NCBI RefSeq assembly: GCF_029909975.1
Contig: NZ_CP094516.1
Span: 8,348,501-8,412,500, forward strand
Source: Bradyrhizobium sp. ISRA430
GTDB lineage: Bacteria > Pseudomonadota > Alphaproteobacteria > Rhizobiales > Xanthobacteraceae
Direction of reading: 5' to 3'
Length of the DNA: 64,000 bases
A model generated the notes under the pieces. The model was not told the DNA's origin. It saw nothing but the letters and a program-made list of their open reading frames with translations, and ran no database searches. Shown here piece by piece: positions 37,271-60,218 of this stretch (positions are counted from its first letter, which is position 1; every line of letters starts with the position of its first letter). A program made the position numbers and the translations under genes.

Positions 37271-37966
37271 TCAGGCTGTGCCTCGACGCTGGGTGAATCG
37301 GAATGCTTCAGGACCCGTATCAAACAGTAGGTCAAGCACGCTCACGCCATGTTCAAAGCCGCCATGGAGCTGCGGGTATTCCGGATACCCGTCGTAGCTC
37401 ATCCACTCAGTAGTGATTCCGTCAGCGGCGAGAAGAGCCTCGTCAAGGTAGGCTCGTGCCGAAGGGCCGCTTAGATAGCGATCCGCGCCCGCGGCACGCG
37501 CGATCGCAAGAAGCCTCACAGTTTTCGTACCGTCTGCGGGATAGGTTGTATCCCGGACAATGCGTGTCTTCAATCCAAGCAGCCCTGCTATCTCGCGCGT
37601 GAACAGTTCGTTCACATCAGTGAGGCGCGTCTCCTTGTCGGCCCGCTCGTACCAGACCCGCACGACTGGCGCGAGCAGGTCGAAGAACGGTGCGCGACGA
37701 TAGGCCAGTTCGAGTGCCCGCCAGTGTTTCTCGGCCCATGGCTTTTCGATAGCGACTTCGTCGATCGCCTGGTCGAACCGCCCTTTGGTCACGACAGGTA
37801 TCGTGAGCCACTCGAGGCCGTTGGCAGTTTTAATACGGTTTCGATTGTGCCAGTGCCGCTTCACAAACTGCATGCGATCGAAGATCACGTACTCATCGCA
37901 TTGCCCGATCAGGTCGAAAAATCCCTTCCAAGGGATGTAGCAGGACTGAATGATAGAGATTCTCAC
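37271..37966 (-). CDS. WbqC-family protein
   Basis: The 231-aa product matches the WbqC-like family across its length: N-terminal IIQSCYIPWKGFFDLIGQCDEYVIFDRMQF, then RHWHNRNRIKTANG, LTIPV, and C-terminal GPSARAYLDEALL and LDLLFDTG. The family is frequent in O-antigen and modified-sugar loci, sometimes next to sugar aminotransferases, but its biochemical role is unresolved. Here it stands alone on the minus strand, about 1.3 kb from the next gene. Confidence 0.88.
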   Translation of the reverse strand: MRISIIQSCYIPWKGFFDLIGQCDEYVIFDRMQFVKRHWHNRNRIKTANGLEWLTIPVVTKGRFDQAIDEVAIEKPWAEKHWRALELAYRRAPFFDLLAPVVRVWYERADKETRLTDVNELFTREIAGLLGLKTRIVRDTTYPADGTKTVRLLAIARAAGADRYLSGPSARAYLDEALLAADGITTEWMSYDGYPEYPQLHGGFEHGVSVLDLLFDTGPEAFRFTQRRGTA

Positions 37967-41188: not shown

Positions 41189-42331
41189 TCAGTGCAGGAG
41201 AATTTGCCGCAGCGTGTCGCAGACCCGCTCCTGCTGCGATTCGCTCAAGCCGATCCAGAACGGCAGCCTGATCAGCCGTTCCGAGACCGATGTCGTGGTC
41301 TTGAGTTCGCCGGCCGCGCGACCAAACCGCCGTCCCGCTGGCGAGGAGTGAAGCGGCACATAGTGGAACACCGCGTGAACTCCGTGCTCCTTGAGCGCGG
41401 CGAGAACCGTACCGCGGTCGATATCTTGGGACAGCAGGACGTAGTACATGTGTCCGTTCTGGCGGCAACCGTCAGGCACGATAGGACGGCGCAGCAGGCC
41501 CCGCTGCTCCAGTCCGGCGAGCATGCCGTGGTAGCGATTCCAGATCGCCAACCGCTCGGCCGTCATGCGGTCGGCCTGCTCGAGCTGGGCCCACAGAAAC
41601 GCCGCGGTCATCTCGTTCGGCAGAAAGGACGAGCCGACATCCTGCCAGTTGTACTTGTCCACTTCGCCGCGGAAGAACCGGCTGCGATTGGTCCCTTTCT
41701 CGCGCATGATCTCGGCCCTGGTGACGAGTTCGGGATCGTTCAGAAGGATGCACCCGCCTTCGCCGGACATGATGTTCTTGGTCTCGTGAAAGCTGAAGCT
41801 TCCGATACGACCGATCGCCCCGAGCGCGCGTCCCTTGTAGTCGGCCATGATGCCCTGGGCGGCATCCTCGACAATGCTGAGGTTGTGACGCTCGGCGATC
41901 GCCAGGATCGGGTCCATGTTGCAGCCGACGCCAGCATAGTGCACGGGCGCGATCGCGCGCGTCCGCGATGTGATCGCGGCCTCGATCTGCCGCTCGTCCA
42001 AGTTAAGCGTGTCCTCGCGCACATCGACGAACACTGGCACCGCGCCGCGAAGAACGAACGCGTTCGCGGTTGATACGAAGGTGAAGGAGGGCACGATGAC
42101 TTCGTCGCCGCTCTCGAGGTCGAGCAGCATTGCGGCAAGGTCGAGAGCAGAGGTGCAGGAGTGCGTCAGCAGCGCCTTGGCACATCCGGTGTTCCGCTCG
42201 AGCCATTCGTGGCAGCGCTTCGTGAACGGACCATCGCCGGACAGGTGGAAATTCCGCTGCGCCTGCTCGATATAGCCCAGCTCGTTTCCGGTCAGATGTG
42301 GCCGATTAAAGGGTATGAACTCGGATATCAT
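41189..42331 (-). CDS. wecE: dTDP-4-amino-4,6-dideoxygalactose transaminase (WecE/RffA-like)
   Basis: The 380-aa DegT/DnrJ-fold PLP enzyme is full length. It reads like E. coli WecE throughout: IPFNRPHLTGNELGYIEQA, LSGDGPFTKRC, LLTHSCTSALDLAAMLLD, EDAAQGIMADYKGRALG, FSFHETKNIMSGEGG with PLP lysine K185, and EKGTNRSRFFRGEVDKY. Expected reaction: dTDP-4-keto-6-deoxyglucose plus glutamate to dTDP-4-amino-4,6-dideoxygalactose. RmlA and RmlB encoded nearby would supply the substrate. The substrate assignment is by similarity only. Confidence 0.9.
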   Translation of the reverse strand: MISEFIPFNRPHLTGNELGYIEQAQRNFHLSGDGPFTKRCHEWLERNTGCAKALLTHSCTSALDLAAMLLDLESGDEVIVPSFTFVSTANAFVLRGAVPVFVDVREDTLNLDERQIEAAITSRTRAIAPVHYAGVGCNMDPILAIAERHNLSIVEDAAQGIMADYKGRALGAIGRIGSFSFHETKNIMSGEGGCILLNDPELVTRAEIMREKGTNRSRFFRGEVDKYNWQDVGSSFLPNEMTAAFLWAQLEQADRMTAERLAIWNRYHGMLAGLEQRGLLRRPIVPDGCRQNGHMYYVLLSQDIDRGTVLAALKEHGVHAVFHYVPLHSSPAGRRFGRAAGELKTTTSVSERLIRLPFWIGLSESQQERVCDTLRQILLH

Positions 42332-42421
42332 TCCTTACTCATCGATGTCGACCGCGGGGTCTCGCCGGAAATCATATCGACATCCATCCGCGAGGCTGCT
42401 AGCTCGCTCCCGTGGAGAGAG

Positions 42422-44002
42422 ATGGCCTTGAATCACAAAGCCGATGCGAGCGGAAACTTGGGGCCAGCCGACTCCGGGCGTCATAGCCGGGTTCGCCGCC
42501 TTGTTCAAGGCTGGTCGGCAAATCTGGTCCAGCTGGCTCTTGGCATCACGCAGCAAGTCCTGCTCGTCCCGGTCTTCCTGCATTTCTGGAGCAGCGATGT
42601 GCTCGCGGCCTGGCTGGCCATCCTCGCCGCTGGAAATCTTATGCTCATCGCAGATGCCGGCCTGCAGCTCCACGCGATCAATCGCTTCCTGACCTTCAAG
42701 TCGAGCGTCGATCCCGACGGGCGCACGGCAAGCTTCTACGCGCGCATGCGGCTGATCTATTTCGCCGTGGCGGGCGCGCTCAGCGTGGTCGTGCTGGCGC
42801 TGACGCAATTTGCGCCGCCGGCCGCCGTGCTGGGATTCCAGGGAGTGGCGGGGTTCGACACCGCCCTTCTTGTCATGACAATTGGCGTGCTGGTGATCCT
42901 GCCGTCCAACCTGGTGTCGGCGCTGTACCGGGCGCGCGGCGAGTACGGCCGCGCGGTGTGGCTGCAGAACGGCGCTATCCTCGTCGCACAACTGGCTCAG
43001 CTCGTCGCCATCCTGATGCTCGGTACGCTGGTCGCCGTCGCTGTCGCCTTCCTCTCGACGCAGGTTGCGATGGCGTTCTTCCTTGTCGCAATCGATGCGC
43101 CGCACCTGTTTCCGTTCCTTCGTCGGAAGCAGGCGCCGGTGTTCCGGCGCCAGTTTTGGCGCTGGTCGGTCGGGCAATTCCGGCTGGCGTTTCCGTTCGC
43201 GGTTGCCAACGTGACGGAGCTTGCGTTGCTCAACGCGCCCGTGCTCCTGGTCAGCGCGTTCCTAGTCGATCGTATTGCAGTCGCGCAGTGGGGACTGACG
43301 AGAGTGGTCGTTGGGCTTCTGAGGGGATTGTGCGTCCAGGTCAGCCTGCCGCTCGCCGCCGAGCTCGGGCATGACTACGCCATCGGAGACAGGGATCGTC
43401 TGCGCCAGCTCTTTGCACGGGGCTCGCTGCTCGTCACCATCCTGTCCAGCCTGATCGTGTCGGGCCTCCTGCCGTTCTGGCCGGATTTCTTCGCCCTATG
43501 GACGCATGGCAGCGTCCCCTATGACGCTGCGCTCACCGCGACCTTGCTGCTCGGCTCCGTCGCCACCGCGCCATCGCTGCTCGCGCTCTCCTTCGCCAAT
43601 TACAGCAATCGACGGGACCTTCTGGTTCGTACGAAAGGCCTGCAGCTCGTCGCCTTCCTGGTTCTGTCCATAACGCTGATCCCCGTGCTGGGCGTGCTCG
43701 GAGCGGCGATCGCGATCGTGCTGAGCGATCTCCTGATTCAAATGGGCGTGCTCGGCTCCATCCTCATGCGCCAGACGTTGCAGAATGCATTTCGCCACCT
43801 GCTGTTCAGCGGCATTGTCGCCACGGTCATCATTGTCCTCGGATACGGCCTCGGCGCCGTTATCAGGTCCTCGCTACCGCTTGCGGGCTTCCCACGCCTC
43901 GTCGGCGAAAGCGTGCTGTGGCTGGTCGCAGTGTGTCTCGTGGCCGGCGTGGTCTGGACTCGCCGCATTCGTGCGACACTGATGGCGTCGGTTCCGGACT
44001 AG
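42422..44002 (+). CDS. Wzx-type O-antigen flippase
   Basis: Predicted 526-aa polytopic membrane protein of the MATE/PST (MVF) fold with about 12-14 helices and few charged residues. The ATG at 42422 is preferred because GGAGAGAG precedes it; a longer frame to 42161 overlaps the WecE-like gene antisense. It should flip undecaprenyl-diphosphate-linked repeat units to the periplasmic side. It is divergent from wecE and convergent with rmlA, ending in a hairpin. Confidence 0.85.
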   Translation: MALNHKADASGNLGPADSGRHSRVRRLVQGWSANLVQLALGITQQVLLVPVFLHFWSSDVLAAWLAILAAGNLMLIADAGLQLHAINRFLTFKSSVDPDGRTASFYARMRLIYFAVAGALSVVVLALTQFAPPAAVLGFQGVAGFDTALLVMTIGVLVILPSNLVSALYRARGEYGRAVWLQNGAILVAQLAQLVAILMLGTLVAVAVAFLSTQVAMAFFLVAIDAPHLFPFLRRKQAPVFRRQFWRWSVGQFRLAFPFAVANVTELALLNAPVLLVSAFLVDRIAVAQWGLTRVVVGLLRGLCVQVSLPLAAELGHDYAIGDRDRLRQLFARGSLLVTILSSLIVSGLLPFWPDFFALWTHGSVPYDAALTATLLLGSVATAPSLLALSFANYSNRRDLLVRTKGLQLVAFLVLSITLIPVLGVLGAAIAIVLSDLLIQMGVLGSILMRQTLQNAFRHLLFSGIVATVIIVLGYGLGAVIRSSLPLAGFPRLVGESVLWLVAVCLVAGVVWTRRIRATLMASVPD

Positions 44003-44035: not shown

Positions 44036-44911
44036 TTAGAGGAGGCTGGCTTGGCGGATGAGGTATTTGCCGTAGGCGGTATTCTTCATCGGCTCGGCGA
44101 GCTTCACGAGCTGTTCTGCATCGATGAAGCCCTGGAGGAAGGCGACTTCCTCCGGACAGGCGATCTTCAGTCCCTGCCGCTTTTCGACGATGTAGATGAA
44201 CTCCGAAGCTTCGAGCAGCGACTCGTGAGTTCCTGCATCGAGCCAGGCATAGCCACGGCCGAAACGCTCGGCGCGAAGCTCGCCGCGTTCCAGATACCAC
44301 TGATTGACGTCGGTGATCTCGAGCTCCCCGCGCGCCGAAGGCTTGATTTCGCGCGCGACATCGACGACGCGCTCGTCGTAGAAATAGAGGCCCGTTACGG
44401 CATAGTTCGACTTCGGCGCCTTTGGTTTCTCGACGATTCCCGCCGGACGGTGCGATAGGTCGAACTCGATTACGCCATAGCGCTCGGGATCGTCGACCCA
44501 GCAGGCGAATACCGTTGCGCCGCGCGTCCGCTCGGCCGAATTACGCATCAGGGCGCGCAGGTTGTCGCCATAGAAGATGTTGTCGCCGAGGATCAGCGCG
44601 CAGGCACTGCCGGCCAGGAACTCGCGGCCGATCAGGAATGCCTCGGCGATGCCGCCCGGATGATCCTGGATGGCAAAGGACAACTCGATGCCCCATTGCC
44701 GTCCATCGCCGAGCAGCCGCTTGAACTGGTCGATCTCCTCCGGAGTCGTAATGATCAGCAGCTCGCGGATTCCGGCAAGCATCAAGGTGGTCAGAGGGTA
44801 GTAGATCAGCGGCTTGTCGTAGATCGGCAGCAATTGCTTCGAGGTGGCAAGCGTCAACGGATAGAGCCGGGTTCCGCGACCGCCGGCCAGAATGATTCCT
44901 TTGCGTTTCAT
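44036..44911 (-). CDS. rmlA: Glucose-1-phosphate thymidylyltransferase (RmlA)
   Basis: The 291-aa product is full length. It has [11 protein letters not shown] at 10-20, [24 protein letters not shown], the metal-site DNIFYG and [13 protein letters not shown]. It makes dTDP-glucose from glucose-1-phosphate and dTTP. The ATG at 44911 ([11 protein letters not shown]) is preferred; an in-frame upstream start at 44938 would add nine atypical residues. RmlB lies 5.3 kb away on the same strand, with other sugar genes between. Confidence 0.95.
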
Positions 44912-45179
44912 GTGCTCGCACTCTATGTCAGTGTTCACGGCTACTTAGGGTAGGGTGGTCCGTTAGCACGCGCCGTAGCCAACTCAAAGGTCGGAGACGG
45001 TCGAGTCGATGCCAAGACCCATCCCCAGAGAGAAAAATCGTTAATTTTTCCAGTGCGTTAGACCGGGGAGAGGTGGCTGCGTTGCTAGGTCTCCACCTCT
45101 GGGCTAGGAATGGAGCGGGGACGTCTTCGGCACGACTCTTCCGCGCGCCGCGCCCCTTCCGGCTGACCGACAAGGCATC

Positions 45180-46208
45180 ATGGCGAAGCGCGTCTACTGC
45201 ACTTACTTTGACCACAACTACCTGCCGCGGGGCGTCGCCCTGTATCAGTCGCTGCAACGATATGCGCCGGGTGCGCGGTTGTGGGTGCTCTGTCTCAATG
45301 ACATCTGCTACCGCGCGCTCTTAGCGCTCGACCTTCCGCATCTCGTGCCGTGCCGGCTCGCCGATTTCGAGGCCGCTGATCCCGAGGTGGCGGCGACGCG
45401 GTCGACGCGCAGCACGATCGAATATTTCTTCACCTGTTCGCCGGCCTGGATGCTCTTCGTGCTGAAACGAGAGCAAGACGCGGAATGGGTGACGTATCTG
45501 GACGGCGATCTCTATTTTTACGCGTCGCCCGAGACGATCTATCATGAGCTCGAAGGCTCGTCGGTTGCGATCATTCCCCACCGTTACACCCGGGAGATCG
45601 CGCGGCTGAAGAAGTTCGGCACTTACAATGTCGGTTGGGTCGGCGTTCGCAACGAGCCGGACGGTCGGGCAGTCATCGAGTGGTGGCGAAAGAAGTGCAT
45701 CGAATGGTGCTATGATTACGTGGACAACGGGCGCTTTGCTGATCAGGGTTATCTCGATGCCTTTCCCGGTCTATCCGCGCGGGTTAAGATTATCGATAAC
45801 ATCGGAGCGAACCTGGCTCCCTGGAACATCGGCAACTATCGAATCGATTTCAGCAACGACACCGTCATCATCGACAAGGCGCACCCGCTGATATTTTTCC
45901 ATTTCCAGGGGCTGAAGAAGGGCCTGGTCTGGTTCGTTTTCAACAGTCACCGGCGCTATCGGGCGCCTTTCTCCATGAACGCGCGCGAGCACATCTATAA
46001 GCCGTACATCAATGAATTGCTCGAGATCGAGCGAAGCACCAGCGCGCTTCTGGCTGTTCCCAAAATGAAGCCGCATGGGCGGTCATCGAATGTCGGTCTC
46101 AGGAAATACCTCGAGGGCAAGGTGCGAAATTTGGCAACGCGAGTTTTGCAGGTACTCGACGTCGTGACCGGGCGGGCCTTTTTCGTCTACAAGGGAGTTG
46201 CGCGCTAG
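45180..46208 (+). CDS. Putative family 8-like glycosyltransferase
   Basis: The 342-aa product begins with a GT-A-type strand-helix (RVYCTYFDHNYLPRGVALYQSLQRYAPGA) and has YLDGDLYFY with the DxD motif D108-x-D110, followed by YNVGWVGVRN and FADQGYLDAF, all reminiscent of GT8 and related retaining enzymes. The C-terminal 60 residues are basic and may bind membrane. The acceptor and donor are unknown. No hydrophobic segment is present. Confidence 0.75.
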   Translation: MAKRVYCTYFDHNYLPRGVALYQSLQRYAPGARLWVLCLNDICYRALLALDLPHLVPCRLADFEAADPEVAATRSTRSTIEYFFTCSPAWMLFVLKREQDAEWVTYLDGDLYFYASPETIYHELEGSSVAIIPHRYTREIARLKKFGTYNVGWVGVRNEPDGRAVIEWWRKKCIEWCYDYVDNGRFADQGYLDAFPGLSARVKIIDNIGANLAPWNIGNYRIDFSNDTVIIDKAHPLIFFHFQGLKKGLVWFVFNSHRRYRAPFSMNAREHIYKPYINELLEIERSTSALLAVPKMKPHGRSSNVGLRKYLEGKVRNLATRVLQVLDVVTGRAFFVYKGVAR

Positions 46209-46375: not shown

Positions 46376-47476
46376 ATGCTGCCGCCGTTTTGGGAATACG
46401 GACGCGAATATGACGAGTTGCGGGACGAGATTCTCGCTGCGGTCGATCGTGTCTTCAGCTCAGGTCAGTTGATTCTCGGGCCGGAGGGGCTGGCTTTTGA
46501 GCGCCAGATGGCCGAATGCGTCGGCGTGACCGGAGGCGTCGGCGTCAATAGCGGCACCGATGCGATCTACATTGCGCTCGCCGCGCTCGGCGTGAAGGCT
46601 GGCGACGAGGTCATCACGGTGCCGAACACCGCGGTCCCGACCGTATCGGCGATCCAGACGCTCGGCGCACGCCCGGTCTTCGTCGACGTGCGGGACAATG
46701 ATTTCCTCATGGATGTCGAGCAGGTCGAGGGGGCAATCACGCCGCGCACGAGGGCGATCATCCCGGTCCATCTGTATGGCCAGTGCGTCGATCTGGACCC
46801 GCTGATGGCGCTAGCCGAGCGGCACGGGCTCAAGGTGATGGAGGACTGCGCCCAGTCGCAGGGCGCGCTCTACAAGGGGCGGCAGTCGGGAAGCATTGGT
46901 CATGCGTCGTCGTTCTCGTTCTATCCGACCAAGCTGCTCGGAGGGTATGGCGACGGCGGAATGGTCCTCAGCCGTGACCAGGCAGTCATCGATCTCGCCC
47001 GTTCGCTGCGCTTCTACGGTATGGAGCAGACCTACTACGCGGAGAGACATGGGTTCAATTCAAGGCTGGACGAGGTTCAGGCAGCAATTCTCTCGCTGAA
47101 GTTGCCGAGAGTGGAAGGTTGGATCGAGCGCCGCCGTAGCATCGCCGGCCGTTACCGGCGCGGCTTTGCGGGTTGCGGCCTTGAGATGCCGGCCGAGAAC
47201 AACTATGGCCGTCACGTCTACCACCTCTTTGTGGTGGAGGCGCCGCGTGACCGTGACGAAACCTTGGCACGAATCCAGGCGCGAGGCCTGAAATGTGGTG
47301 TGCAGTACAAGTGGCCCATCCACCTGATGCGAGGTTATCACGATCTCGGCTATCGCCCTGGACAGTTTCCCGTTGCGGAGAAGAAGGCACAAAGAATCTT
47401 CTCCTTGCCCATCTATCCGCACCTCACGGACGACGAGGTCGACGAGATCATTGATGTCGTGAGAGCGGAAATCTAG
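46376..47476 (+). CDS. DegT/DnrJ sugar aminotransferase (3-aminotransferase candidate)
   Basis: The 366-aa PLP enzyme has VNSGTDAIYIALAALGVKAGDEVITVPNTAVPT, PVHLYGQCVDLD, EDCAQSQGALYKGR, SFSFYPTKLLGGYGDGG with PLP lysine K186 and HGFNSRLDEVQAAIL. The sequence style is that of the FdtB/QdtB/DesV-like sugar 3-aminotransferases rather than the WecE-type. It is followed after 1 bp by a 2,3-dehydratase-like gene. This fits a pathway in which the dehydratase makes a 3,4-diketo-2,6-dideoxy sugar and this enzyme aminates C3, as EvaB does. Substrate assignment is inference. Confidence 0.85.
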   Translation: MLPPFWEYGREYDELRDEILAAVDRVFSSGQLILGPEGLAFERQMAECVGVTGGVGVNSGTDAIYIALAALGVKAGDEVITVPNTAVPTVSAIQTLGARPVFVDVRDNDFLMDVEQVEGAITPRTRAIIPVHLYGQCVDLDPLMALAERHGLKVMEDCAQSQGALYKGRQSGSIGHASSFSFYPTKLLGGYGDGGMVLSRDQAVIDLARSLRFYGMEQTYYAERHGFNSRLDEVQAAILSLKLPRVEGWIERRRSIAGRYRRGFAGCGLEMPAENNYGRHVYHLFVVEAPRDRDETLARIQARGLKCGVQYKWPIHLMRGYHDLGYRPGQFPVAEKKAQRIFSLPIYPHLTDDEVDEIIDVVRAEI

Positions 47477-47477
47477 C

Positions 47478-48179
47478 ATGGCCGAGCATCAGAACCTCGA
47501 TTGGCTGAGGGACAGGCTGCGGGCTTCACTGTACGCGGAAGCCAATGACCCTTCCGAGCTGATTGAGTGGCTGCAAGACCGCCGCAAAGAGGTGCCGTTT
47601 TCTGCTCATTTGATCGCATTGCGCGATGTCGCGAACTGGCGACAGGACGACGACGGCAATATCCACAACGTGAGCGGACAATTCTTCCGGATCGAGGGCG
47701 TGAGGGTGCAGAGCGCGCCCGGCCTTCGCGAGATAGCTGGATGGGACCAGCCGATTTTCACGCAGACCGATGGCGGCGTTCTCGCGTTGCTGTCCCGGGA
47801 AACGCGAGATCGTGGCGTGGAGTTTCTGCTGCAGGCGAAGGCCGATCCGGGCAACATAGGCTATCTGCAGTTCTGCCCGACCATTCAGAGCACGTGGGAA
47901 AACATCCGCGGCCTGAAAGGCGCCCGCCGCGCGCCATTTGCGGAATGCCTCGATCCGTCCGACAATATTCGTCTAATCTACAGATCGAAGCACAATGAGG
48001 AAGGCAGCCGCTTCTGGCAGAAGTCGAACGAAAACATGATCCTGTTCGTGGAGGACGCGTCCGCGCTGACGATCGATGATCGTACCTACCGCTGGGCCAG
48101 TCTGTCGCAGATCAAGCAGATGATGCTTCTCGACAACGTCGTGGGACCCTACGTCAGGACTGTCGTCGCGCCGCTGTGA
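47478..48179 (+). CDS. Half-size NDP-hexose 2,3-dehydratase family protein
   Basis: The 233-aa product matches one unit of the dTDP-4-keto-6-deoxyglucose 2,3-dehydratase family (EvaA, TylX3, SpnO type): FFRIEGV at 69-75, GWDQP near 88-92, FLLQAKADPGN near 117-126 and PTIQSTWENI near 134-143. Characterised family members are about 450-480 aa with two homologous halves; here only one is encoded. The single unit may work as a homodimer or with another protein, or be inactive. It starts 1 bp after the aminotransferase stop. Codon usage looks native and intact. Confidence 0.85.
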   Translation: MAEHQNLDWLRDRLRASLYAEANDPSELIEWLQDRRKEVPFSAHLIALRDVANWRQDDDGNIHNVSGQFFRIEGVRVQSAPGLREIAGWDQPIFTQTDGGVLALLSRETRDRGVEFLLQAKADPGNIGYLQFCPTIQSTWENIRGLKGARRAPFAECLDPSDNIRLIYRSKHNEEGSRFWQKSNENMILFVEDASALTIDDRTYRWASLSQIKQMMLLDNVVGPYVRTVVAPL

Positions 48180-48212: not shown

Positions 48213-49001
48213 CTATTTCCTTTTCGAGAGGAGATAGGTTTCTGCTTTCGAACGATGGCCTGTCACCTTGGACACGTCATACGGAATGGACGGCCAGCTT
48301 CGTTCCAGGCGCAGCCCGGCTGCTTCGCACAGGCCGATCAGTTCCTGCCTGCCGAAAACGATCTCGACCACCGGCGCGCCATAGGCATATTTTCGCAGAT
48401 ATGTCGTCGGGTGATCGTCGAACACCGGCACGCTGTGCAGGATGCAGTAGTCGGCGACGCGCGCCGCCTCGCGGATCGCTGCGGGATAATCGATGATGTG
48501 CATCAGCGATACGCCGTTGAACACGATATCGAAGGCGGCGTCGGCATAGGGCAGGGCGGTCGCGTCGGCGACCTCGAAGGCTGCGGACGGGTAGTTGGCA
48601 TGCGCCCGCTCGATCATTGCGGCGGAATAGTCGATGCCGGTGTAAAGCAGTCCGCCTTTGACCAGGGCATCGAATACCTCCGAATAGTAGCCGCTGCCGC
48701 ATCCCACCTCGAGCAATCGAGGCTGCCCGATGCCGGTCGCAGCAACAGCCTCGGCGGCCACCTGGAGGTCGAGCCGCGGCTCGCCCCGCTTCATGGCGGC
48801 GATCAGGCCAAGATAGGCCCGCTCCTGACGGCGCACGGTCCGCGCAGCGAGCCAACCACCCGATGAAGCCTGCGCCTTCCGGGCTTCCTCGACCCCGCCA
48901 AGCACGCTGTAGTCGGTCGACGTCAGGATCTGCCGGCGGAGCAGCGGCGACGCGTTGACAACGCGTTTGCCGATTTGCCTGATTGCGCGGGGCAGCTTCA
49001 T
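48213..49001 (-). CDS. SAM-dependent methyltransferase
   Basis: The 262-aa product has the SAM motif LLEVGCGSGYYSEVFDALVKGG, IDYSAAMIERAHANYP, and FDIVFNGVSLMHI, typical of class I small-molecule methyltransferases. The ATG at 49001 (MKLPRAIRQIGK) is used: GAGG lies 8 bases upstream and it begins 2 bp after the preceding gene's stop, while a longer frame to 49421 runs antisense-like through that gene. It probably O- or C-methylates a sugar of the repeat unit. Confidence 0.8.
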   Translation of the reverse strand: MKLPRAIRQIGKRVVNASPLLRRQILTSTDYSVLGGVEEARKAQASSGGWLAARTVRRQERAYLGLIAAMKRGEPRLDLQVAAEAVAATGIGQPRLLEVGCGSGYYSEVFDALVKGGLLYTGIDYSAAMIERAHANYPSAAFEVADATALPYADAAFDIVFNGVSLMHIIDYPAAIREAARVADYCILHSVPVFDDHPTTYLRKYAYGAPVVEIVFGRQELIGLCEAAGLRLERSWPSIPYDVSKVTGHRSKAETYLLSKRK

Positions 49002-50194: not shown

Positions 50195-51307
50195 CTAGAC
50201 CGCGATCCGGAAGCTGTAATTCTTGTCGAGCCAGGCCTTGTAGCCGCCGCTTACGATCTCGTCCCACCAGCTCTGGTGGTCGAGGTACCAGTGGACGGTC
50301 TGATCGAGGCCGGCCTCGAAGGTGATGCTGCAGCTTTCGCCGAGTTCGTTTGCGAGCTTGCGCGCATCGATGGCGTAGCGGTGGTCGTGGCCGGGCCGGT
50401 CCGTGACATATCGGATCAGCGAGCGGCAGGATTGGTTGGTCGCCGCCGGGCATGACGGAAAGCGCGCGGCCAGCGCCGGACTTCCGGCAAACGCGCGGTC
50501 GATCAGATCGCAGATCGTGCCGACGACATCGCGATTGTTCCGCTCGCTGCCGCCGCCGACATTGTAGGTCTCGCCCGGAGATCCCCGCTCGACGACCGTC
50601 ATCAGCGCCCGACAGTGCTCGGACACGTGCAGCCAATCGCGAATGTTCGACCCATCCCCGTAGATCGGCAGCGGCTTGCCCTCCAGCGTATGGATGATCA
50701 TCAGGGGAATCAGCTTTTCCGGGTGCTGATAGGGGCCGTAATTGTTCGAGCAATTGGTGATCAGCGCGGGCAGCCCATAAGTCACCACGAAGGAGCGGAC
50801 GAGATGGTCGCTGGCCGCCTTGCTGGCGGCATAGGGCGAATTCGGACGATAGGGCGTGGACTCAGAGAAGGGCGGGTCCGTCGGTTCGAGCGATCCATAG
50901 ACCTCGTCGGTCGAGATGTGGAGGAAGCGCGCATGCCGCATCGTGTCGGAGGCGCGCCAGGCATCGAGGGCCGCCTTGAGCAGGGTGAACGTGCCGAGCA
51001 CGTTGGTCTGGAGGAACGCCTCGGGATCGACGATGGAACGGTCGACGTGGGATTCCGCGGCCAGATGCAGCACGCGATCGAACTTGTGCTCGTCAAACAG
51101 TGCGCGCACCAGACCCGCATTCCTGATGTCGCCCTTGACGAAGACGATGCCGCCGTTCGCGATCAGCGGTTCGAGGCTGCGGATGTTGGCCGCATATGTC
51201 ATCGCATCCACGACGACCAGCCGGTCATCCGGACGAGCCGCCCGCCACGCATGCACCAGATTTTGGCCGATGAATCCGGCCCCTCCAGTAATCAGAACGT
51301 TATGCAT
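50195..51307 (-). CDS. rmlB: dTDP-glucose 4,6-dehydratase (RmlB)
   Basis: The 370-aa extended SDR enzyme is full length. Visible are the NAD site GGAGFIG (8-14), catalytic T133-D134-E135 in STDEVYG, Y159-x-x-x-K163 in SPYAASKAASDH and the RmlB-type NNYGPYQHPEKLIPL and GDGSNIRDWLHV. It converts dTDP-glucose to dTDP-4-keto-6-deoxyglucose, the branch point for deoxy and amino sugars. RmlC and RmlD are not in the window. It is upstream of a glycosyltransferase and methyltransferase in one minus-strand unit. Confidence 0.95.
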   Translation of the reverse strand: MHNVLITGGAGFIGQNLVHAWRAARPDDRLVVVDAMTYAANIRSLEPLIANGGIVFVKGDIRNAGLVRALFDEHKFDRVLHLAAESHVDRSIVDPEAFLQTNVLGTFTLLKAALDAWRASDTMRHARFLHISTDEVYGSLEPTDPPFSESTPYRPNSPYAASKAASDHLVRSFVVTYGLPALITNCSNNYGPYQHPEKLIPLMIIHTLEGKPLPIYGDGSNIRDWLHVSEHCRALMTVVERGSPGETYNVGGGSERNNRDVVGTICDLIDRAFAGSPALAARFPSCPAATNQSCRSLIRYVTDRPGHDHRYAIDARKLANELGESCSITFEAGLDQTVHWYLDHQSWWDEIVSGGYKAWLDKNYSFRIAV

Positions 51308-51337: not shown

Positions 51338-52699
51338 TCAACGTGCAGGCGCCGGAGCCTTCGCTCGGTCCGACTGGGCGGTGAAAGCCGGCCTCGGCGT
51401 AACGTACCAGAGAATGAAGATGATCAGGGCCCCGTTCGACAGCAGGTTCGTGGCCAATGGTACGTTCAGGAGCACCTGGCTCAACAATCCCCCCGACAGG
51501 ATGACGAATCTCGGAGGCAGGCCGGCCGAGGCCCGGTTTCCAAGAGAGATGACGAGCCCGCAGGCGGCCGCCGCGACCGGCGCCGCAAGGGGCCCGACGG
51601 ATGCGATGCCCTCGGTGGCAAACAGTGATGCGTTCAGGTTCCCGAGCTCATAATTCTTGGACATCAGGACCGATAGCGGGTCGTTATAGGTACAGCCAAG
51701 ATACGTCTTGATCAGAAGGATCTGACAAAAGTGCGTTAGCTGATGGGTCGAGAAAAAGTCGTTGTAGACGTCGAGTGCGATCGAGGGGAACGCGATCATC
51801 CGGAAGTTGATTGCCGAGAAGTATTTGATGAACAGCTCGTACGGGATGGCTCCGAGCTTGTAGGGAATGATCAGCAACAGTCCGCCGGAGATCGGCAGGA
51901 GCAGAGACAGGAGAATGGCGGCTCTTGGTTCGAACCCTCGGGCGACCACCGCGAGAAAGAGCAGCCAGAACGGGGCAAAGAAGGTCAGCTTGGTCAAGGT
52001 GATTGGATAGAACGCCAGCAGCAGCAGAAGGGCAATTGCTGCTTTCACTCTTTCACCGCTCGTGACGAAGCTGGCAAAGGCGAACGGCAGCAGCGCGTTC
52101 GACGTTATGCCGATGGCGTACCGGAGCGGAGCAGGAAATTCCAAGGCGTTCCGGAAGTCATAGATCGTGTCGATGCCCGCCAGTCTGAAATTGTAGAATG
52201 TGCCCGCCGCGACTGTCGCGGCCGCGATCATCAGGATGACCAGCCGCAACTTCTTCGCCGCGTCATCACTCAGAACGACATGCTGCTTGATGGGTCCGGT
52301 GATGAAAAGCACCGGGACCAGGAACGCGACGATCGAAGCGATGGCGGAAGCGAGCGACAGCGCCCGGTCGTAGGGAAATTTCGAGAATACACGCAGCCAC
52401 GCATAGCCGACGATCAGGGTATAGAGATAGAAGCCCACGAAATAGCCGAAACTGAACCGGGCACGCGCAAAGAGGACGGCGACTGCCGCGAGCAGCAGGA
52501 CGACCAGGGCCGCTGTCGGCAACTGCGCCTGCGCGAAGGCGACCGCTCCGGTGTAACCGTAGAACTGGGCGACATAGACCAGCGACACGCAGCAGACGAC
52601 CAGGTGAATCCAAAGCAGCAGCAGGCGTCCTTGCCACGACGAAGGGGTCGTGAGGCCGAAGGCCCCGGTCGGTCCGAGGACTCGTTCCGCGGCTTTCAT
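51338..52699 (-). CDS. Polytopic Wzy-like membrane protein, paralog 1
   Basis: Predicted 453-aa inner-membrane protein with about 11-12 hydrophobic helices. It is homologous end-to-end to the 445-aa protein at 52696-54033 (shared FSFGYxVGFY, ITSNxLLPFAFAxFV, YPITLxKLxxFAPxWL, NxNASLFATEGIASVG and ILWYVTPRP). Wzy polymerases are highly divergent, so polymerase function is inferred from topology and context (with Wzx and a Wzz-like gene). The ATG at 52699 overlaps the neighbour's stop as ATGA; a longer frame to 52891 is not credible. Confidence 0.7.
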   Translation of the reverse strand: MKAAERVLGPTGAFGLTTPSSWQGRLLLLWIHLVVCCVSLVYVAQFYGYTGAVAFAQAQLPTAALVVLLLAAVAVLFARARFSFGYFVGFYLYTLIVGYAWLRVFSKFPYDRALSLASAIASIVAFLVPVLFITGPIKQHVVLSDDAAKKLRLVILMIAAATVAAGTFYNFRLAGIDTIYDFRNALEFPAPLRYAIGITSNALLPFAFASFVTSGERVKAAIALLLLLAFYPITLTKLTFFAPFWLLFLAVVARGFEPRAAILLSLLLPISGGLLLIIPYKLGAIPYELFIKYFSAINFRMIAFPSIALDVYNDFFSTHQLTHFCQILLIKTYLGCTYNDPLSVLMSKNYELGNLNASLFATEGIASVGPLAAPVAAAACGLVISLGNRASAGLPPRFVILSGGLLSQVLLNVPLATNLLSNGALIIFILWYVTPRPAFTAQSDRAKAPAPAR

Positions 52700-54033
52700 G
52701 CCGGCTTGCCGAAGAGTGGCCGGGGGGTCACGTACCAGAGTATGAAGAGCAGTGCAGCGCCGTTGGTCACGAAAGTGATCGTGAGGGAGACGTTGAGGAA
52801 GATCTGCGGGAGCACGCCGGCCGACAACAGGACAAATCGCGATGGCAGGCCGGAGGAGGCGGAGTTGCCGACCGCCACGACCAGGCCGCAAATGAAGGCG
52901 GCGAGCGGCGCAAGTCCGACGCCAACCGAGGCGATGCCTTCGGTTGCGAACAGTGATGCGTTGAAATTCCCCACATTGTAGGCGTTCTGCATCACGATCG
53001 CCAATGGCTCGCGGTAGGGGCAGTCGATGAAGGATTTAAGGGCGTTCACCTGACAGAACCAGGTCAGGTCATGATGGGCAAAGAAGTCGTTGTAAAAGTC
53101 GAGGGCGCTGGAGGTCAGCGCGATCATTCTGAAATTGACCAGGCTGAAATAGGCGATGAACTGCTGAAACGAGATGACGTTCAGGTCGAGCAGCCTGGCC
53201 AGCAATATGCCGAACAGGATCGGTACCAGCAGAGACAGGATCACCGCGGTTCTCGTCGAGAAGGCCCGGGATGCGACCGCCAGAATGATCAGCCACACCG
53301 GCGCGAAAAGCGAAAGCTTGGCCAGGGTGATAGGATAGAACATGAGCAGCAGGAGCAGGCACAGGGCGGCCCGCCACTTGGCGCCCTCGACGACGAAGCA
53401 GGCGAAGGCGAACGGCAGCAGGACGTTCGAGGTGATCCCAAGCCCGTACGAGAGCCAGGCCGGAAATTCGAGCTGGTTGCGGAAATTGTAGATCTCGGAG
53501 ATCCCGACCAGCCGAACATTGTAGAGCGCGCCGGCTCCGAGTGCTGCGGCGGCAAGCACCAGGATGCAGGTCAGCAGCCTTCGAAAGCCGGCCTCCGACA
53601 AAACGAACCTCTGTCTGGCCGGTATCGACATCAGCATGGCGGGCAAGAGGAACGTCAGTCCCGAGGCGAATGCCGAGGCATAGGCCACGACGTGGTCGTA
53701 AGAGAACGTCGATAGCGGGAGCAGCCAGAGGTATCCCATCAGCATGGTGAAGAAGTAGAAGCCGACGAGGTAGCCGAAGCTGAAGCGGCACACGGCGAAC
53801 AGGATCGAGAGCAGAGCGAAGGGTGCGATGTTCAGCGCGGCGAGCAAGAGCCTGTCGCTGTTCGTGGGGGTCAGGCGCATGAGCGGCGCGTAGTACTGCA
53901 CGACATAGGCCATGGAGACGAAGCAGGCGGCCACGTGCAGGTAGATGAGGAAGACCGGCCCGAGTCCCTCGTTGCGGCTCGTGTCGACCTCGATGGGGCT
54001 ACGGTTCAAGATCTCGTCCACTTCGCTGCTCAT
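52696..54033 (-). CDS. Polytopic Wzy-like membrane protein, paralog 2
   Basis: Predicted 445-aa membrane protein with about 11-12 helices and a short soluble N-terminus. It is the upstream member of a tandem paralogous pair, 4-bp ATGA overlap with the downstream gene. Long helices are separated by a periplasmic-looking loop (LVNFRMIALTSSALDFYNDFFAHHDLTWFCQVNA). The common block NFNASLFATEGIASVG is probably a conserved functional loop. Polymerase activity is inferred. A Wzz-like gene is 45 bp upstream. Confidence 0.7.
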   Translation of the reverse strand: MSSEVDEILNRSPIEVDTSRNEGLGPVFLIYLHVAACFVSMAYVVQYYAPLMRLTPTNSDRLLLAALNIAPFALLSILFAVCRFSFGYLVGFYFFTMLMGYLWLLPLSTFSYDHVVAYASAFASGLTFLLPAMLMSIPARQRFVLSEAGFRRLLTCILVLAAAALGAGALYNVRLVGISEIYNFRNQLEFPAWLSYGLGITSNVLLPFAFACFVVEGAKWRAALCLLLLLMFYPITLAKLSLFAPVWLIILAVASRAFSTRTAVILSLLVPILFGILLARLLDLNVISFQQFIAYFSLVNFRMIALTSSALDFYNDFFAHHDLTWFCQVNALKSFIDCPYREPLAIVMQNAYNVGNFNASLFATEGIASVGVGLAPLAAFICGLVVAVGNSASSGLPSRFVLLSAGVLPQIFLNVSLTITFVTNGAALLFILWYVTPRPLFGKPA

Positions 54034-55209: not shown

Positions 55210-55374
55210 AGGTCGGTGCAATTGATTTCTCGTGGAAATTGCGCCCGGTTGTCATCTCCGGCGGGTGCCAATTGGCTTGATCTAAAAGAGCTTTTGCGTA
55301 TAGACCTCTAGGCCGCGAGGGGGCGGATATTGAGGCGTCCTGGCCTCGGCCTGCGTGATCAGGGGGAAGGTTTC

Positions 55375-56436
55375 ATGCTCAGATTCGGCTTGCTCGGTTG
55401 CGGACGTATCTCCAAACGGCACGCGGATCTGCTTGGCTCCAATCAGATCGAAAATGCCAAGCTGATCGCGGTTTGCGATCCGGTCCGCGAGCGCGCCGAC
55501 GCTGTGGCGACGAAATTCGGAATACCTGCAGACTACGACATCGAGACGTTCCTTGCCAGGAAGGACATCGACGTCGTTACCGTGCTGACACCGAGCGGCA
55601 TGCATCCCCAGCATGCGATCGCCTCTGCGAAGGCGGGCAAGCACGTGGTCGTCGAAAAGCCGATGGCGCTTCGGCTCCAGGATGCCGACGACATGATCCG
55701 GGCCTGCGACCAAGCCGGCGTGAAGCTGTTCGTGGTCAAGCAAAACCGCTTCAACGTGCCGGTGGTCAAGGCCCGCGAGGCTCTCGACGCCGGTCGCTTC
55801 GGCAAGCTGGTGCTCGGAACGGTCCGGGTGCGGTGGTGCCGTGACCAGGCCTATTACGACCAGGACGCCTGGCGCGGCACTTGGGCCTATGACGGCGGCG
55901 TGCTCACGAACCAGGCGAGCCACCACATCGACATGCTGGAGTGGTTCTTCGGCGACGTCGTCAGCGTGCACGCCCGCGCCACGACGGCGCTTGTGAAGAT
56001 CGAAACCGAGGATACCGCAGTCGCAACGCTGAAATTCCGCAACGGCGCGCTGGGCATCATCGAGGCGACGACGGCGGTTCGTCCGAAGGATCTCGAAGGC
56101 TCGCTCTCGATCCTCGGCGAAAAGGGCGCGGTCGAGATCGCCGGCTTCGCCGTCAACCAGATCAGGCACTGGCGCTTCGTCGACGAGCTTCCAAGCGACA
56201 AGGAGGTTGTCGAGAAGTTTTCGGTCAATCCGCCGAACGTCTACGGATTTGGCCATCAGGCCTATTACCAGCACGTGGTAGATTGCCTGCTGCACGAGCG
56301 CGCCGCACTGGTGGACGGTCTTCAGGGCCGAAAGAGCCTGGAACTGATTTCGGCGCTTTACGAGTCGATTGAAACCGGCAAGGAGGTAGCGCTTCGTTTC
56401 GAACCGCGCAGGAGCCGCCTCGGGCTGACCGCATGA
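55375..56436 (+). CDS. Gfo/Idh/MocA-family sugar dehydrogenase (WlbA-like)
   Basis: Predicted 353-aa NAD-dependent oxidoreductase. The Rossmann start MLRFGLLGCGRISKRHADLL, the VVEKPMAL catalytic-lysine motif and NQASHHIDMLEWFFG with the putative catalytic histidine match WlbA/WbpB-type enzymes that oxidise C3 of UDP-N-acetylglucosaminuronate. The block RWCRDQAYYDQDAWRGTWAYDGG is a shared feature of that group. AGGGGGAAGG precedes ATG 55375. Its stop overlaps the acetyltransferase start as ATGA. The cassette WlbA-WlbB-WlbC makes a 2,3-diacetamido sugar acid; no UDP-GlcNAc dehydrogenase gene is visible here. Confidence 0.85.
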   Translation: MLRFGLLGCGRISKRHADLLGSNQIENAKLIAVCDPVRERADAVATKFGIPADYDIETFLARKDIDVVTVLTPSGMHPQHAIASAKAGKHVVVEKPMALRLQDADDMIRACDQAGVKLFVVKQNRFNVPVVKAREALDAGRFGKLVLGTVRVRWCRDQAYYDQDAWRGTWAYDGGVLTNQASHHIDMLEWFFGDVVSVHARATTALVKIETEDTAVATLKFRNGALGIIEATTAVRPKDLEGSLSILGEKGAVEIAGFAVNQIRHWRFVDELPSDKEVVEKFSVNPPNVYGFGHQAYYQHVVDCLLHERAALVDGLQGRKSLELISALYESIETGKEVALRFEPRRSRLGLTA

Positions 56437-56909
56437 ACATGCCGGAAGTACATCGGGTCGGCGTACGCGACGACGTCAAATTCGGCGCCGGCGTAAAGCT
56501 GGTCGAGCCCTGCAACCTCTATGGTTGCGTCATCGGCGACGGCTGCTTCATCGGGCCCTTCACTGAGATCCAGAAGGACGTGATGATCGGGGCGCGCACC
56601 CGCGTGCAGTCGCACGCCTTCATCTGCGAGCTCGTGACTATCGGCGACGACTGCTTCGTGGGTCACGGCGTGATGTTCGTCAACGATACCTTCGCAACGG
56701 GCGGCCCGGCCCGTGGACGCAAGGAGCTGTGGCGCACGACGGTCATCGGAGACCGCGTTTCGATCGGCTCCAACGCAACCATCCTGCCGGTCCGGATCGC
56801 GAGCGATGTCGTGATTGGGGCAGGGGCGGTCGTTACGAAAGATATCACCGAGCCCGGTACCTATGCCGGCAATCCCGCGCGCCGCATGGCGCCGCGCAAG
56901 GAGGCTTGA
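56433..56909 (+). CDS. Hexapeptide acyltransferase (WlbB/WbpD-like)
   Basis: The 158-aa left-handed beta-helix protein is built of hexapeptide repeats (VKFGAGVKLVEP, NLYGCVIGDGCFIGPFTEI, MIGARTRVQSHAFI, VIGDRVSIGSNATIL, VVIGAGAVVTKDI), typical of WlbB/WbpD-type amino-sugar N-acetyltransferases. It probably acetylates the 3-amino group installed by the following aminotransferase. It overlaps both neighbours by ATGA and TGATG, so the three genes form one translationally coupled unit. Confidence 0.85.
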   Translation: MNMPEVHRVGVRDDVKFGAGVKLVEPCNLYGCVIGDGCFIGPFTEIQKDVMIGARTRVQSHAFICELVTIGDDCFVGHGVMFVNDTFATGGPARGRKELWRTTVIGDRVSIGSNATILPVRIASDVVIGAGAVVTKDITEPGTYAGNPARRMAPRKEA

Positions 56910-58012
56910 TGCGAGTACCATTCGCCGATCTACACCTTCAGTACCAGAACCTGAAGTCCGAGATTGACGGCGCGATCGCGGCCGTCATCCGCGACAGCGC
57001 CTTCATTCGCGGGCCGTTCGTCGACGCGTTCGAGGCGGAGTTCGCCAAGACCGCCGAGGCGAAGCATTGCATTTCCTGCGCGAACGGCACGGACGCGCTC
57101 TACCTTGCAATGGTCGCGCTCGGGGTGAAGCCGGGCGACGAAGTGATCACGACGGCGCATTCCTGGATCTCGACATCCGCGATGATCACTTATTCCGGCG
57201 CCAAGGTCGTGTTCTGCGATACCGACGATGCCACCTTCACGATCGATCCGGCCGCGATCGAGCGGGCGATCACGCCCCGCACGGTCGGCATCATCCCGGT
57301 GCATCTGTACGGTCAGCCGGCCGACATGGACGCCATCATGGCCATCGCGCGGAAGAACAAATTGTGGGTGATCGAGGACTGCGCGCAGGCTCACCTGGCG
57401 CGCTATAAGAGCCAGCTCGTCGGCACGTTCGGGGCGGCTGCGACCTACTCGTTCTATCCGGGCAAGAATCTGGGCGCGATGGGAGATGCGGGCGCGGTCG
57501 TCACGAATGACTCGGCCCTCGCCGAACACATGACCAAGCTCGCCCGGCATGGTGGCGTGGTGAAGCATAAGCACGACATCGAAGGCATTAATAGCCGTCT
57601 GGACGGTATGCAGGCGGCGATCCTGTCGGCCAAGCTGCCGCACCTCGAGGCCTGGACCGTGGCCCGGCAAGAAGCAGCGTCGGTCTATGACGCCGGCCTC
57701 AAGCAGATCGAGGATCTCGAGGTGCCGCAGGTCGCGGCCGGCCGCACACACGTCTACCATCTCTACACCGTCAAGCATCCTAAGCGCGATGCGTTGGCGA
57801 GCTACCTGAACTCAAACGGCGTGCAGACGGCGATCAACTACCCGACGGCGTTGCCGTTGCTGCCGGCCTATGGCCGGTATGAGCACAAGCCGGAGCAGTT
57901 TCCGAACGCCTCTCGCGACCAGCACAAGATACTTTCCCTGCCGATGTACGCCGAGATTAGCCGGCAACAGCAGAGCTACGTCATCGGCCTGATCCGGAAG
58001 TTCGAAGGCTAG
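56909..58012 (+). CDS. DegT/DnrJ sugar 3-aminotransferase (WlbC/WbpE-like)
   Basis: The 367-aa PLP enzyme has CANGTDALYLAMVALGVKPGDEVI, PVHLYGQPADMD, IEDCAQAHLARYKS, YSFYPGKNLGAMGDAG with PLP lysine K186 and INSRLDGMQAAIL. It is full length and reads as a sugar 3-aminotransferase. With the neighbouring dehydrogenase and acetyltransferase it forms a WlbA/B/C-type unit. It starts at ATG 56909 inside the acetyltransferase stop codon (TGATG) and its own stop overlaps the convergent glycosyltransferase stop. Confidence 0.85.
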   Translation: MRVPFADLHLQYQNLKSEIDGAIAAVIRDSAFIRGPFVDAFEAEFAKTAEAKHCISCANGTDALYLAMVALGVKPGDEVITTAHSWISTSAMITYSGAKVVFCDTDDATFTIDPAAIERAITPRTVGIIPVHLYGQPADMDAIMAIARKNKLWVIEDCAQAHLARYKSQLVGTFGAAATYSFYPGKNLGAMGDAGAVVTNDSALAEHMTKLARHGGVVKHKHDIEGINSRLDGMQAAILSAKLPHLEAWTVARQEAASVYDAGLKQIEDLEVPQVAAGRTHVYHLYTVKHPKRDALASYLNSNGVQTAINYPTALPLLPAYGRYEHKPEQFPNASRDQHKILSLPMYAEISRQQQSYVIGLIRKFEG

Positions 58013-59219: not shown

Positions 59220-60218
59220 TCACGCAGAAAAGCTCTCCGGATTTGATGCCGGTCCGCATTCCTTGACGTTGATCCATCCTTTCTCGCTCTGGAAGGAGAT
59301 GTACGCTCTTTTGATCCCATCTTCCATCGACGTCGTCGCGCGCCAGCCGAGCGCCGCGAGACGGCTGATGTCGAGCAGCTTCTGCGGCGTGCCGTCGGGG
59401 CGCGAGGGGTCGAACGTGATCGCGCCGCGATAGCCGATGACATCGGCGACCAGGCGGGCGAAGTCGGCGATGGTGATGTCCTTGCCGGTGCCGATGTTGA
59501 TCAGCTCCGCCCCGGAATAAGTCTTCATCAGGTGCACGCAGGCATCCGCCATATCGTCCGCATGGAGGAACTCGCGGCGCGGCGTGCCCGTGCCCCAGAC
59601 CGTGACGGTCCTGGCGCCGGCGACCTTGGCCTCGTGAAAGCGCCGGATCAGGGCGGCGACCACGTGGCTGTACTCGGGATGATAATTGTCGCCGGGGCCG
59701 TAGAGGTTGGTCGGCATCACGCTGATGAAGTCGCTTCCATACTGGCTGCGATAGGCCTCCGCCATCTTGATGCCGGCGATCTTGGCAATCGCATAGGGCT
59801 CGTTGGTGGGCTCGAGCGGGCCGGTCAGCATCGAGTCCTCGCGCAGCGGCTGGCTCGCGAGCTTCGGATAGATGCAGGAGGAGCCGAGGAACATCAGCTT
59901 CTCGGCACCATTCAGATGCGCGGCGTGGATCACGTTGGCCGCGATCGCGATGTTGTCGTAGATGAACTCGGCGCGCAGCGTGTCGTTGGCGGCGATGCCG
60001 CCGACCTTGGCGGCGGCGAGGAACACCACCTGTGGCCGCATTTTCGCGAACCAGTCGAACACGGCGGCCTGGTTGCAGAGATCGACCTCGCGCCGGTCCA
60101 CCGTGACGAGCTTGACGTCCTCCCGCGCCAGCCGGCGCACCAGCGCGCTGCCGACCATACCGCGATGGCCGGCGACGTAGACGCTCTTGCCCTTCAGCTC
60201 AAACGGTGCGTTTGCCAT
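59220..60218 (-). CDS. fcl: GDP-L-fucose synthase
   Basis: The 332-aa SDR epimerase/reductase is full length. Seen are the N-terminal [20 protein letters not shown] site, SSCIYPK (S113/S114) and Y142-x-x-x-K146 in PYAIAKIAG, and typical [18 protein letters not shown] and [13 protein letters not shown] blocks. It converts GDP-4-keto-6-deoxy-D-mannose into GDP-L-fucose. It starts 20 bp inside the 3' end of gmd. Confidence 0.95.

Follow-up and report, generated by a model that had tools for sequence, protein, structure and literature searches.

A single-domain relative of EvaA with a remodelled active site in a surface-polysaccharide locus of Bradyrhizobium

A gene in a surface-polysaccharide locus of Bradyrhizobium sp. 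ISRA430 encodes a relative of the nucleoside diphosphate (NDP)-hexose 2,3-dehydratase EvaA that is built of one domain where EvaA has two. We analysed it within a stretch of 64,000 nucleotides (contig NZ_CP094516.1, positions 8,348,501 to 8,412,500 of the forward strand; hereafter the window, to which all coordinates refer). The gene, an exact open reading frame with an ATG start, occupies positions 47478-48179 of the forward strand and encodes 233 residues. It lies 1 bp after the gene of a sugar aminotransferase of the DegT/DnrJ/EryC1 family (AT_A; 46376-47476, same strand, 368.8 bits). Comparison of sequences leads us to think that the protein is probably a working single-domain enzyme of a derived subtype, likely a homodimer with shared sites, which together with AT_A would make a deoxythymidine diphosphate (dTDP)-amino-deoxyhexose.

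A Pfam scan finds in the protein one match to PF03559, the family of EvaA, covering residues 27-232 and profile positions 3-202 of 203 (168.5 bits against a curated cut-off of 25; E 1.7e-49), and no other family at E<=0.1, PF05523 of the FdtA/QdtA ketoisomerases included. Its predicted model matches the EvaA fold, which is a Nudix fold. Homologs of the protein are 232-234 aa long in the best 120 of 482 matches, and relatives of a single-domain protein from Chloroflexi 202-241 aa in the best 120 of 704. Between genes of the subtype described below, the ratio of nonsynonymous to synonymous substitution rates (dN/dS) is 0.07-0.16 in the ten pairs formed by five genes, rough values since several dS exceed 1, and these genes look selected to remain functional, under purifying selection. 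A truncated gene or a pseudogene was considered and is ruled out by the uniform length of the homologs listed together with the low dN/dS. The earlier note on this DNA had already seen a single domain, an aminotransferase gene adjoining it and a surface-polysaccharide locus. These observations are confirmed, and the interpretation built on them is partly supported.

The domain is rare in genomes. The genome around the window, one contig of 8.56 Mb, has a single PF03559 match and is the only positive one among 398 of a phylum sample; 2 of 248 genomes of the family, 4 of 385 of the class (one of the four below the cut-off) and 18 of 265 of the genus Bradyrhizobium have it. In public sequence collections, single-domain PF03559 proteins are frequent, and the search for single-unit homologs proposed in the earlier note returned hundreds of matches. 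Such proteins already appear in databases, for instance under the title 'NDP-hexose 2,3-dehydratase family protein [Bradyrhizobium sp.]', so their existence is not new. A table in PMC12210691 states that PF03559 'in majority of the cases exists as a single domain', a wording that we take to mean without domains of other families. Titles and abstract openings of the literature matches listed revealed no treatment of single-domain 2,3-dehydratases.

EvaA of Amycolatopsis orientalis (PDB 4J7G/4J7H) is presented as the sole well-characterised 2,3-dehydratase. Its chain has two domains that go back to a gene duplication, the pocket of one being live and that of the other dead, and the C half's own pocket is dispensable (PMC8987622; this paper names E352 and D353 in pocket B, where the chain that we read has V352 and D353). 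We compared 259 single domains (singles; near-copies included) with the N and C halves of 124 two-domain proteins (doubles). Of these, 120, from sources that include Pseudomonas, Myxococcota, Cyclobacteriaceae and Alphaproteobacteria, were the best of 183 from a sequence search in which scoring was restricted to the 7997 candidates with the most words in common, and four came from plasmids; in six of the 120 the profile of the singles found no second domain, and what remained of the chain served as the C half. Before tree building, clustering reduced the 259 singles to 33 (at 72% identity) and the 124 doubles to 72 (at 55%). Of these 72, 38 entered a larger tree and 19 a more careful one, from which the long rows of Hoeflea and Rhodococcus were dropped. 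In the larger tree, the 33 singles, the 38 N halves and the 38 C halves are a clade each (Shimodaira-Hasegawa-like approximate likelihood ratio test 100, 97 and 91, respectively), and the careful tree of 18, 19 and 19 rows gives the same three clades with supports of 100/99, 99/95 and 100/93. Singles nest in neither half-clade, so that they did not arise recently by break-up of the doubles that were sampled.

Counted without alignment, the motif RE...W.QP is present in 258 of the 259 singles, in none of 125 N halves (the 124 plus EvaA) and in all 124 C halves; K.N.N is present in 258 singles, 123 of 125 N halves and just 1 of 124 C halves. Looser patterns change this little, RE and W.QP separated by 0-8 residues being found in 1 of the 125 N halves (EvaA) and RE and QP separated by 0-10 in 3. 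In the window protein, RE...W.QP spans residues 84-92 (codons at 47727-47753, forward strand). A test on the columns of 33 singles and 72 doubles retained those conserved in at least 90% of one half and at most 20% of the other: singles match 17 of 22 N-only columns and 5 of 10 C-only columns, where 0.60 would be expected (P 0.00015). Singles thus resemble N halves more, while carrying part of the C-type set. The earlier note had described the protein as one half of the two-domain enzyme; by these comparisons it is not simply such a half, as singles hold in one chain residues that doubles divide between their halves.

The presence of both motifs in the same chain predicts a homodimer with composite sites, which duplication would have partitioned later. 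A homodimer of the window protein is plausible: two copies would probably mimic one two-domain EvaA subunit, each supplying the N-type residues of a catalytic pocket and a C-type RE...W.QP that may complete the pocket of its partner, duties that would be divided between the halves of two-domain enzymes. Because RE...W.QP is kept in all 124 C halves, though the C pocket is dispensable in EvaA, the motif should serve something else, and on the simplest reading it completes pocket A across the pseudo-dimer, or holds the halves together. A lineage in which these residues are undivided allows a test of how an active site shared by a dimer is partitioned between fused halves, and RE...W.QP against K.N.N is a clean case, visible in sequences.

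A separate question is whether singles descend from a two-domain enzyme by fission. This we regard as improbable, although the trees are unrooted and both forms occur in alphaproteobacterial assemblies (double in G721, single in G731). Singles sit outside both half-clades, and a product of the N half would have had to regain RE...W.QP, a product of the C half K.N.N. As a single derived from either half must recover the other motif set, the history is polarised, and singles probably diverged before the halves specialised. A profile of 88 singles, used in search of a root, found no sequence link to other Nudix proteins, GDP-mannose hydrolase and ADP-ribose pyrophosphatase included; both of these enzymes are dimers. 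Two doubles stood out among those examined: one in L009:1453-2796 (also L049), an alphaproteobacterial assembly with 10% contamination reported, has a strongly diverged C half, and another, on a Hoeflea plasmid (L030:7929-9209), is very diverged as a whole and lies amid glycosyltransferase and transposase genes.

Within the singles, the window protein belongs to a subtype with an altered site. Mutation of Glu139 or of Glu190 abolishes the activity of EvaA (PMC8987622). Among the 259 singles, 134 have the canonical residues E-S-H-G at the equivalents of EvaA positions 139, 157, 163 and 165, 124 have Asp at the first of these, residue 123 in the window protein (subtype A; its share reflects sampling, the 124 being mostly the closest matches to the window protein), and one is aberrant. 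Subtype A is distinguished from other singles by eleven columns, and in four of these N halves are near-invariant as well. Residue 123 (codon 47844-47846, forward strand, by alignment) is Asp in 124 of 124 subtype A sequences, against Glu in all 134 other singles and all 124 N halves. Residue 141 is Glu in 124 of 124, against Ser in 134 of 134 other singles and 121 of 124 N halves, and residue 149 is Ala in 122 of 124, against Gly in all sequences of the two other groups. At residue 147, Lys (103), Arg (8) or Gln (8) are found in most of the 124, where His occupies the position in all other singles and in 123 of 124 N halves. The window protein therefore differs from EvaA by E139D, S157E, H163K and G165A, the last three falling in a loop (E141, K147, A149) encoded by 47898-47924 on the forward strand. 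It keeps Glu190 as E174 (codon 47997-47999, forward strand), as well as K121, K182, N184 and N186. The claim that family motifs are retained thus holds for Glu190 and fails for Glu139; the alignment with EvaA, on which missing catalytic residues were to refute the interpretation of the earlier note, speaks against it in part, through a conservative Glu-to-Asp replacement, and three more near-invariant positions are changed. Perhaps we see here a reaction centre altered for an unusual cell-surface sugar.

A tree of 42 rows, built after removal of six of the changed columns, still unites subtype A and the aberrant copy in a single clade (100/100). Its stem measures 0.99, and it falls within the alphaproteobacterial canonical singles, with P0186 as its neighbour (95/81). 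Because the window gene is nested on a long stem inside the canonical singles, the word primitive, which the earlier note had used, does not suit it: the gene is of a derived subtype. For the entire lineage of single-domain proteins, which falls outside either half-clade, the word may still be apt.

The genus Bradyrhizobium offers a natural comparison, with 18 loci: 12 with a canonical single (type B), five, including that of the window, with a subtype A single (type A), and one with a decayed type B cassette. In the 12 B loci, the single is closely preceded by genes of an aminotransferase and of a Gfo/Idh/MocA reductase (in L034 the contig end cuts the reductase). In all five A loci the single lies beside an aminotransferase, and comparison with reference genes and Pfam recognised no reductase in these cassettes; it covered open reading frames of at least 200 aa and shorter ones with a reference match, and some of the frames had no family. 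Canonical singles are otherwise like the window protein in length, in both motifs and in the aminotransferase directly upstream, and this extends to another alphaproteobacterium (L048), which also has the reductase, and to Chloroflexi (L006), with no reductase on a contig of 5.3 kb, too short to judge. For the B reductase of L005, the nearest entry is the sugar 3-ketoreductase 3RBV, which we take to be KijD10 (116 bits, against 66.5 for the best unrelated entry). The RmlB, methyltransferase and glycosyltransferase that flank the cassettes show identities to their counterparts in the window that do not track the split between A and B; the gene products of the G1194 locus match at 100% reference genes taken from L003. 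As type A is one clade, its five loci count as a single evolutionary event in which the reductase was lost. A and B cassettes occupy the same place in similar loci of one genus, with and without a reductase, so that a small number of proteins would suffice to test for a change of reaction type.

Two loci depart from this pattern. In L005:8001-11552 (the same contig as L050), two single-domain genes share one locus. The first, an aberrant copy of subtype A (EE-E, with four residues deleted), lacks its aminotransferase and is followed by a complete B cassette of reductase, aminotransferase and canonical single, an arrangement that suggests cassette exchange at the same place. In L047:6900-9139 (G1134), the decayed B cassette retains out-of-frame pieces of the dehydratase gene, with a stretch missing, and pieces of the aminotransferase and reductase genes.

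EvaA dehydrates dTDP-4-keto-6-deoxyglucose to a 3,4-diketone, by a proposed mechanism that begins with removal of the C3 proton (PMC8987622). In the window, RmlA and RmlB would make the same substrate, and the single-domain protein with AT_A most likely a dTDP-amino-deoxyhexose for the surface polysaccharide. No published Bradyrhizobium O-antigen sugar that needs such a pathway was found in the literature matches, passages of PMC4743980 included. Both ketones of an EvaA-type product would need handling, for which B cassettes have two enzymes and A cassettes one. Either an unlinked reductase finishes the sugar in type A strains, or the remodelled protein makes no diketone.

The first of these possibilities, an ordinary 2,3-dehydratase in which Asp123 replaces Glu139, AT_A aminates the 3-keto group and an unlinked reductase reduces the 4-keto group, as in an EvaA/EvaB-like module, stands in our view at even chances. 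It accords with purifying selection and with the retention of E174, K121, K182, N184 and N186, and it has to accommodate changes at four near-invariant positions in a clade on a long stem. Its missing enzyme was sought in ten whole genomes. The B reductase, used as query, has an ortholog in all five of the B genomes chosen from the 12 (455-698 bits) and in none of the five A genomes (best 30.7 bits, E 4.5e-7), two of which, G1193 and G1194, are fragmented assemblies. RmlD was found at E<=1e-30 in none of the ten, with the control for this family positive in 11 of 14 named genomes; RmlC is present elsewhere in G000. These results, with the lack of a recognised reductase in the cassettes, speak against an unlinked reductase, yet such searches cover relatives of few known enzymes, so another one is possible.

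The second, that subtype A is a 3,4-ketoisomerase, seems to us rather unlikely. Once the C3 proton has been taken, as in the first step proposed for EvaA, reprotonation at C4 in place of loss of the 2-hydroxyl would make the protein such an isomerase; AT_A would then make a dTDP-3-amino-3,6-dideoxyhexose, and a ketoreductase would be needless. The FdtA/QdtA ketoisomerases, which would hypothetically perform the same step before a QdtB-like aminotransferase, belong to another family, PF05523, found in none of the ten genomes, a result that speaks for the idea, as do the bookkeeping of ketones between A and B cassettes and the site changes at 139, 157, 163 and 165. The aminotransferase speaks on both sides. 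Among the PDB matches of AT_A, QdtB is second (289 bits), followed by 2OGA (288), presumably DesV, with lower scores for WbpE (240), ArnB (183), 2PO3 (126), presumably DesI, and 4PIW (124). QdtB and DesV act at C3, QdtB on a 3-keto-6-deoxy sugar. The aminotransferase tree separates an A clade (five copies) from a B clade (seven copies) with 100/100, in parallel with the split of the dehydratases. The B aminotransferase, though beside a reductase, scores almost as high against QdtB (278 bits), which weakens this argument; moreover, the single loss of the reductase makes the correlation one observation, the canonical L006 also shows no reductase on its short contig, and no isomerase is known to us in PF03559. 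Of the EvaA/EvaB-like module claimed in the earlier note, the adjacent sugar aminotransferase is confirmed, with QdtB and 2OGA among its closest solved relatives; it may act at C3. Of the 159 positions invariant in nine non-A aminotransferases, 7 are changed in all five A copies. One of the seven is residue 190 of AT_A (46943-46945), where Ala becomes Gly four residues past the presumed pyridoxal phosphate lysine.

Joining this last idea to the history, so that a dehydratase of a pre-duplication homodimer lineage turned into a Nudix-fold 3,4-ketoisomerase after loss of the reductase, gives a scenario with a low probability. A role of subtype A as a mere helper of AT_A, with no catalysis of its own, is very unlikely: the essential Glu139 position is changed and the gene adjoins AT_A in five of five A loci, but the other pocket residues are kept, dN/dS is low, and no other recognised cassette gene would act between RmlB and a 3-aminotransferase.

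The reading that we prefer, a working homodimer that makes an amino-deoxyhexose precursor with AT_A, has to face several points that weigh against it. Asp at the Glu139 position could cripple dehydration, and the product of a true 2,3-dehydratase would, with no ketoreductase, keep one ketone unresolved. As for AT_A, it reached no cut-off among the 25 NCBIfam families listed of 45, the best being that of PseC, a 4-aminotransferase, at 248.5 of 423.5 bits, and its best PDB match is 7b0d, a 'glutamine--scyllo-inositol transaminase' (332 bits). As for the composite site, the two motifs were picked once the column table had been seen, nearly perfect as their partition is. Singles match just half of the C-only columns. 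When the thresholds are relaxed, the C-only matches are 6 of 13 and 7 of 19, and N-only matches also drop, with 20 of 35 and 22 of 42 columns shared. The trees, being unrooted, cannot tell whether singles predate the duplication.

The surroundings of the cassette are those of a polysaccharide locus. On the reverse strand lie an RmlA-like glucose-1-phosphate thymidylyltransferase gene (44036-44938; Pfam NTP_transferase, the RmlA assignment being probable) and a putative RmlB-like dTDP-glucose 4,6-dehydratase gene (50195-51307; Pfam families of extended short-chain dehydrogenases/reductases), together with an S-adenosylmethionine methyltransferase (48213-48998) and a glycosyltransferase (PF13524; 49004-50191), both kept beside A and B cassettes. 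Two polytopic membrane proteins with no Pfam match read as flippase-like (42161-44002, forward) and polymerase-like (51338-52891, reverse), and GDP-mannose dehydratase-like and epimerase-family genes stand further out (59220-61272). A conserved gene upstream of AT_A (45180-46208, forward; no Pfam match) probably encodes a glycosyltransferase, judging from its sequence. Its product is 65-70% identical to those of other A loci and 53-57% to those of most B loci, with 67-68% in L037 and L050, so that identity partly tracks cassette type. Between the convergent dehydratase and methyltransferase genes, 48213-48237 (forward) matches a terminator-like stem-loop by consensus only, and the promoter and terminator scan gave no more than chance (one stem-loop, against 3.0 expected in shuffles).

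Further along, 55330-58012 holds a Gfo/Idh/MocA dehydrogenase, with 3q2k as its best PDB match, and a second DegT aminotransferase; relatives of these genes adjoin both cassette types in other Bradyrhizobium loci, and they are probably a separate sugar pathway. The dehydrogenase (55330-56436) was considered as a stand-in ketoreductase and rejected: its best matches, 3q2k and 3q2i (330 and 308 bits), are, as we take them, WlbA-type UDP-N-acetylglucosaminuronic acid 3-dehydrogenases, the 60 PDB matches listed, out of 63, do not include the 3-ketoreductase 3RBV, and relatives of the dehydrogenase stand beside type B (L034, L036) as well as type A (L045) cassettes. Upstream, a WbqC-like protein (37271-37966; 240.7 bits) is encoded in a stretch of lower G+C content, 0.56-0.60 between 24 and 42 kb, as against about 0.65 at 3-12 kb.
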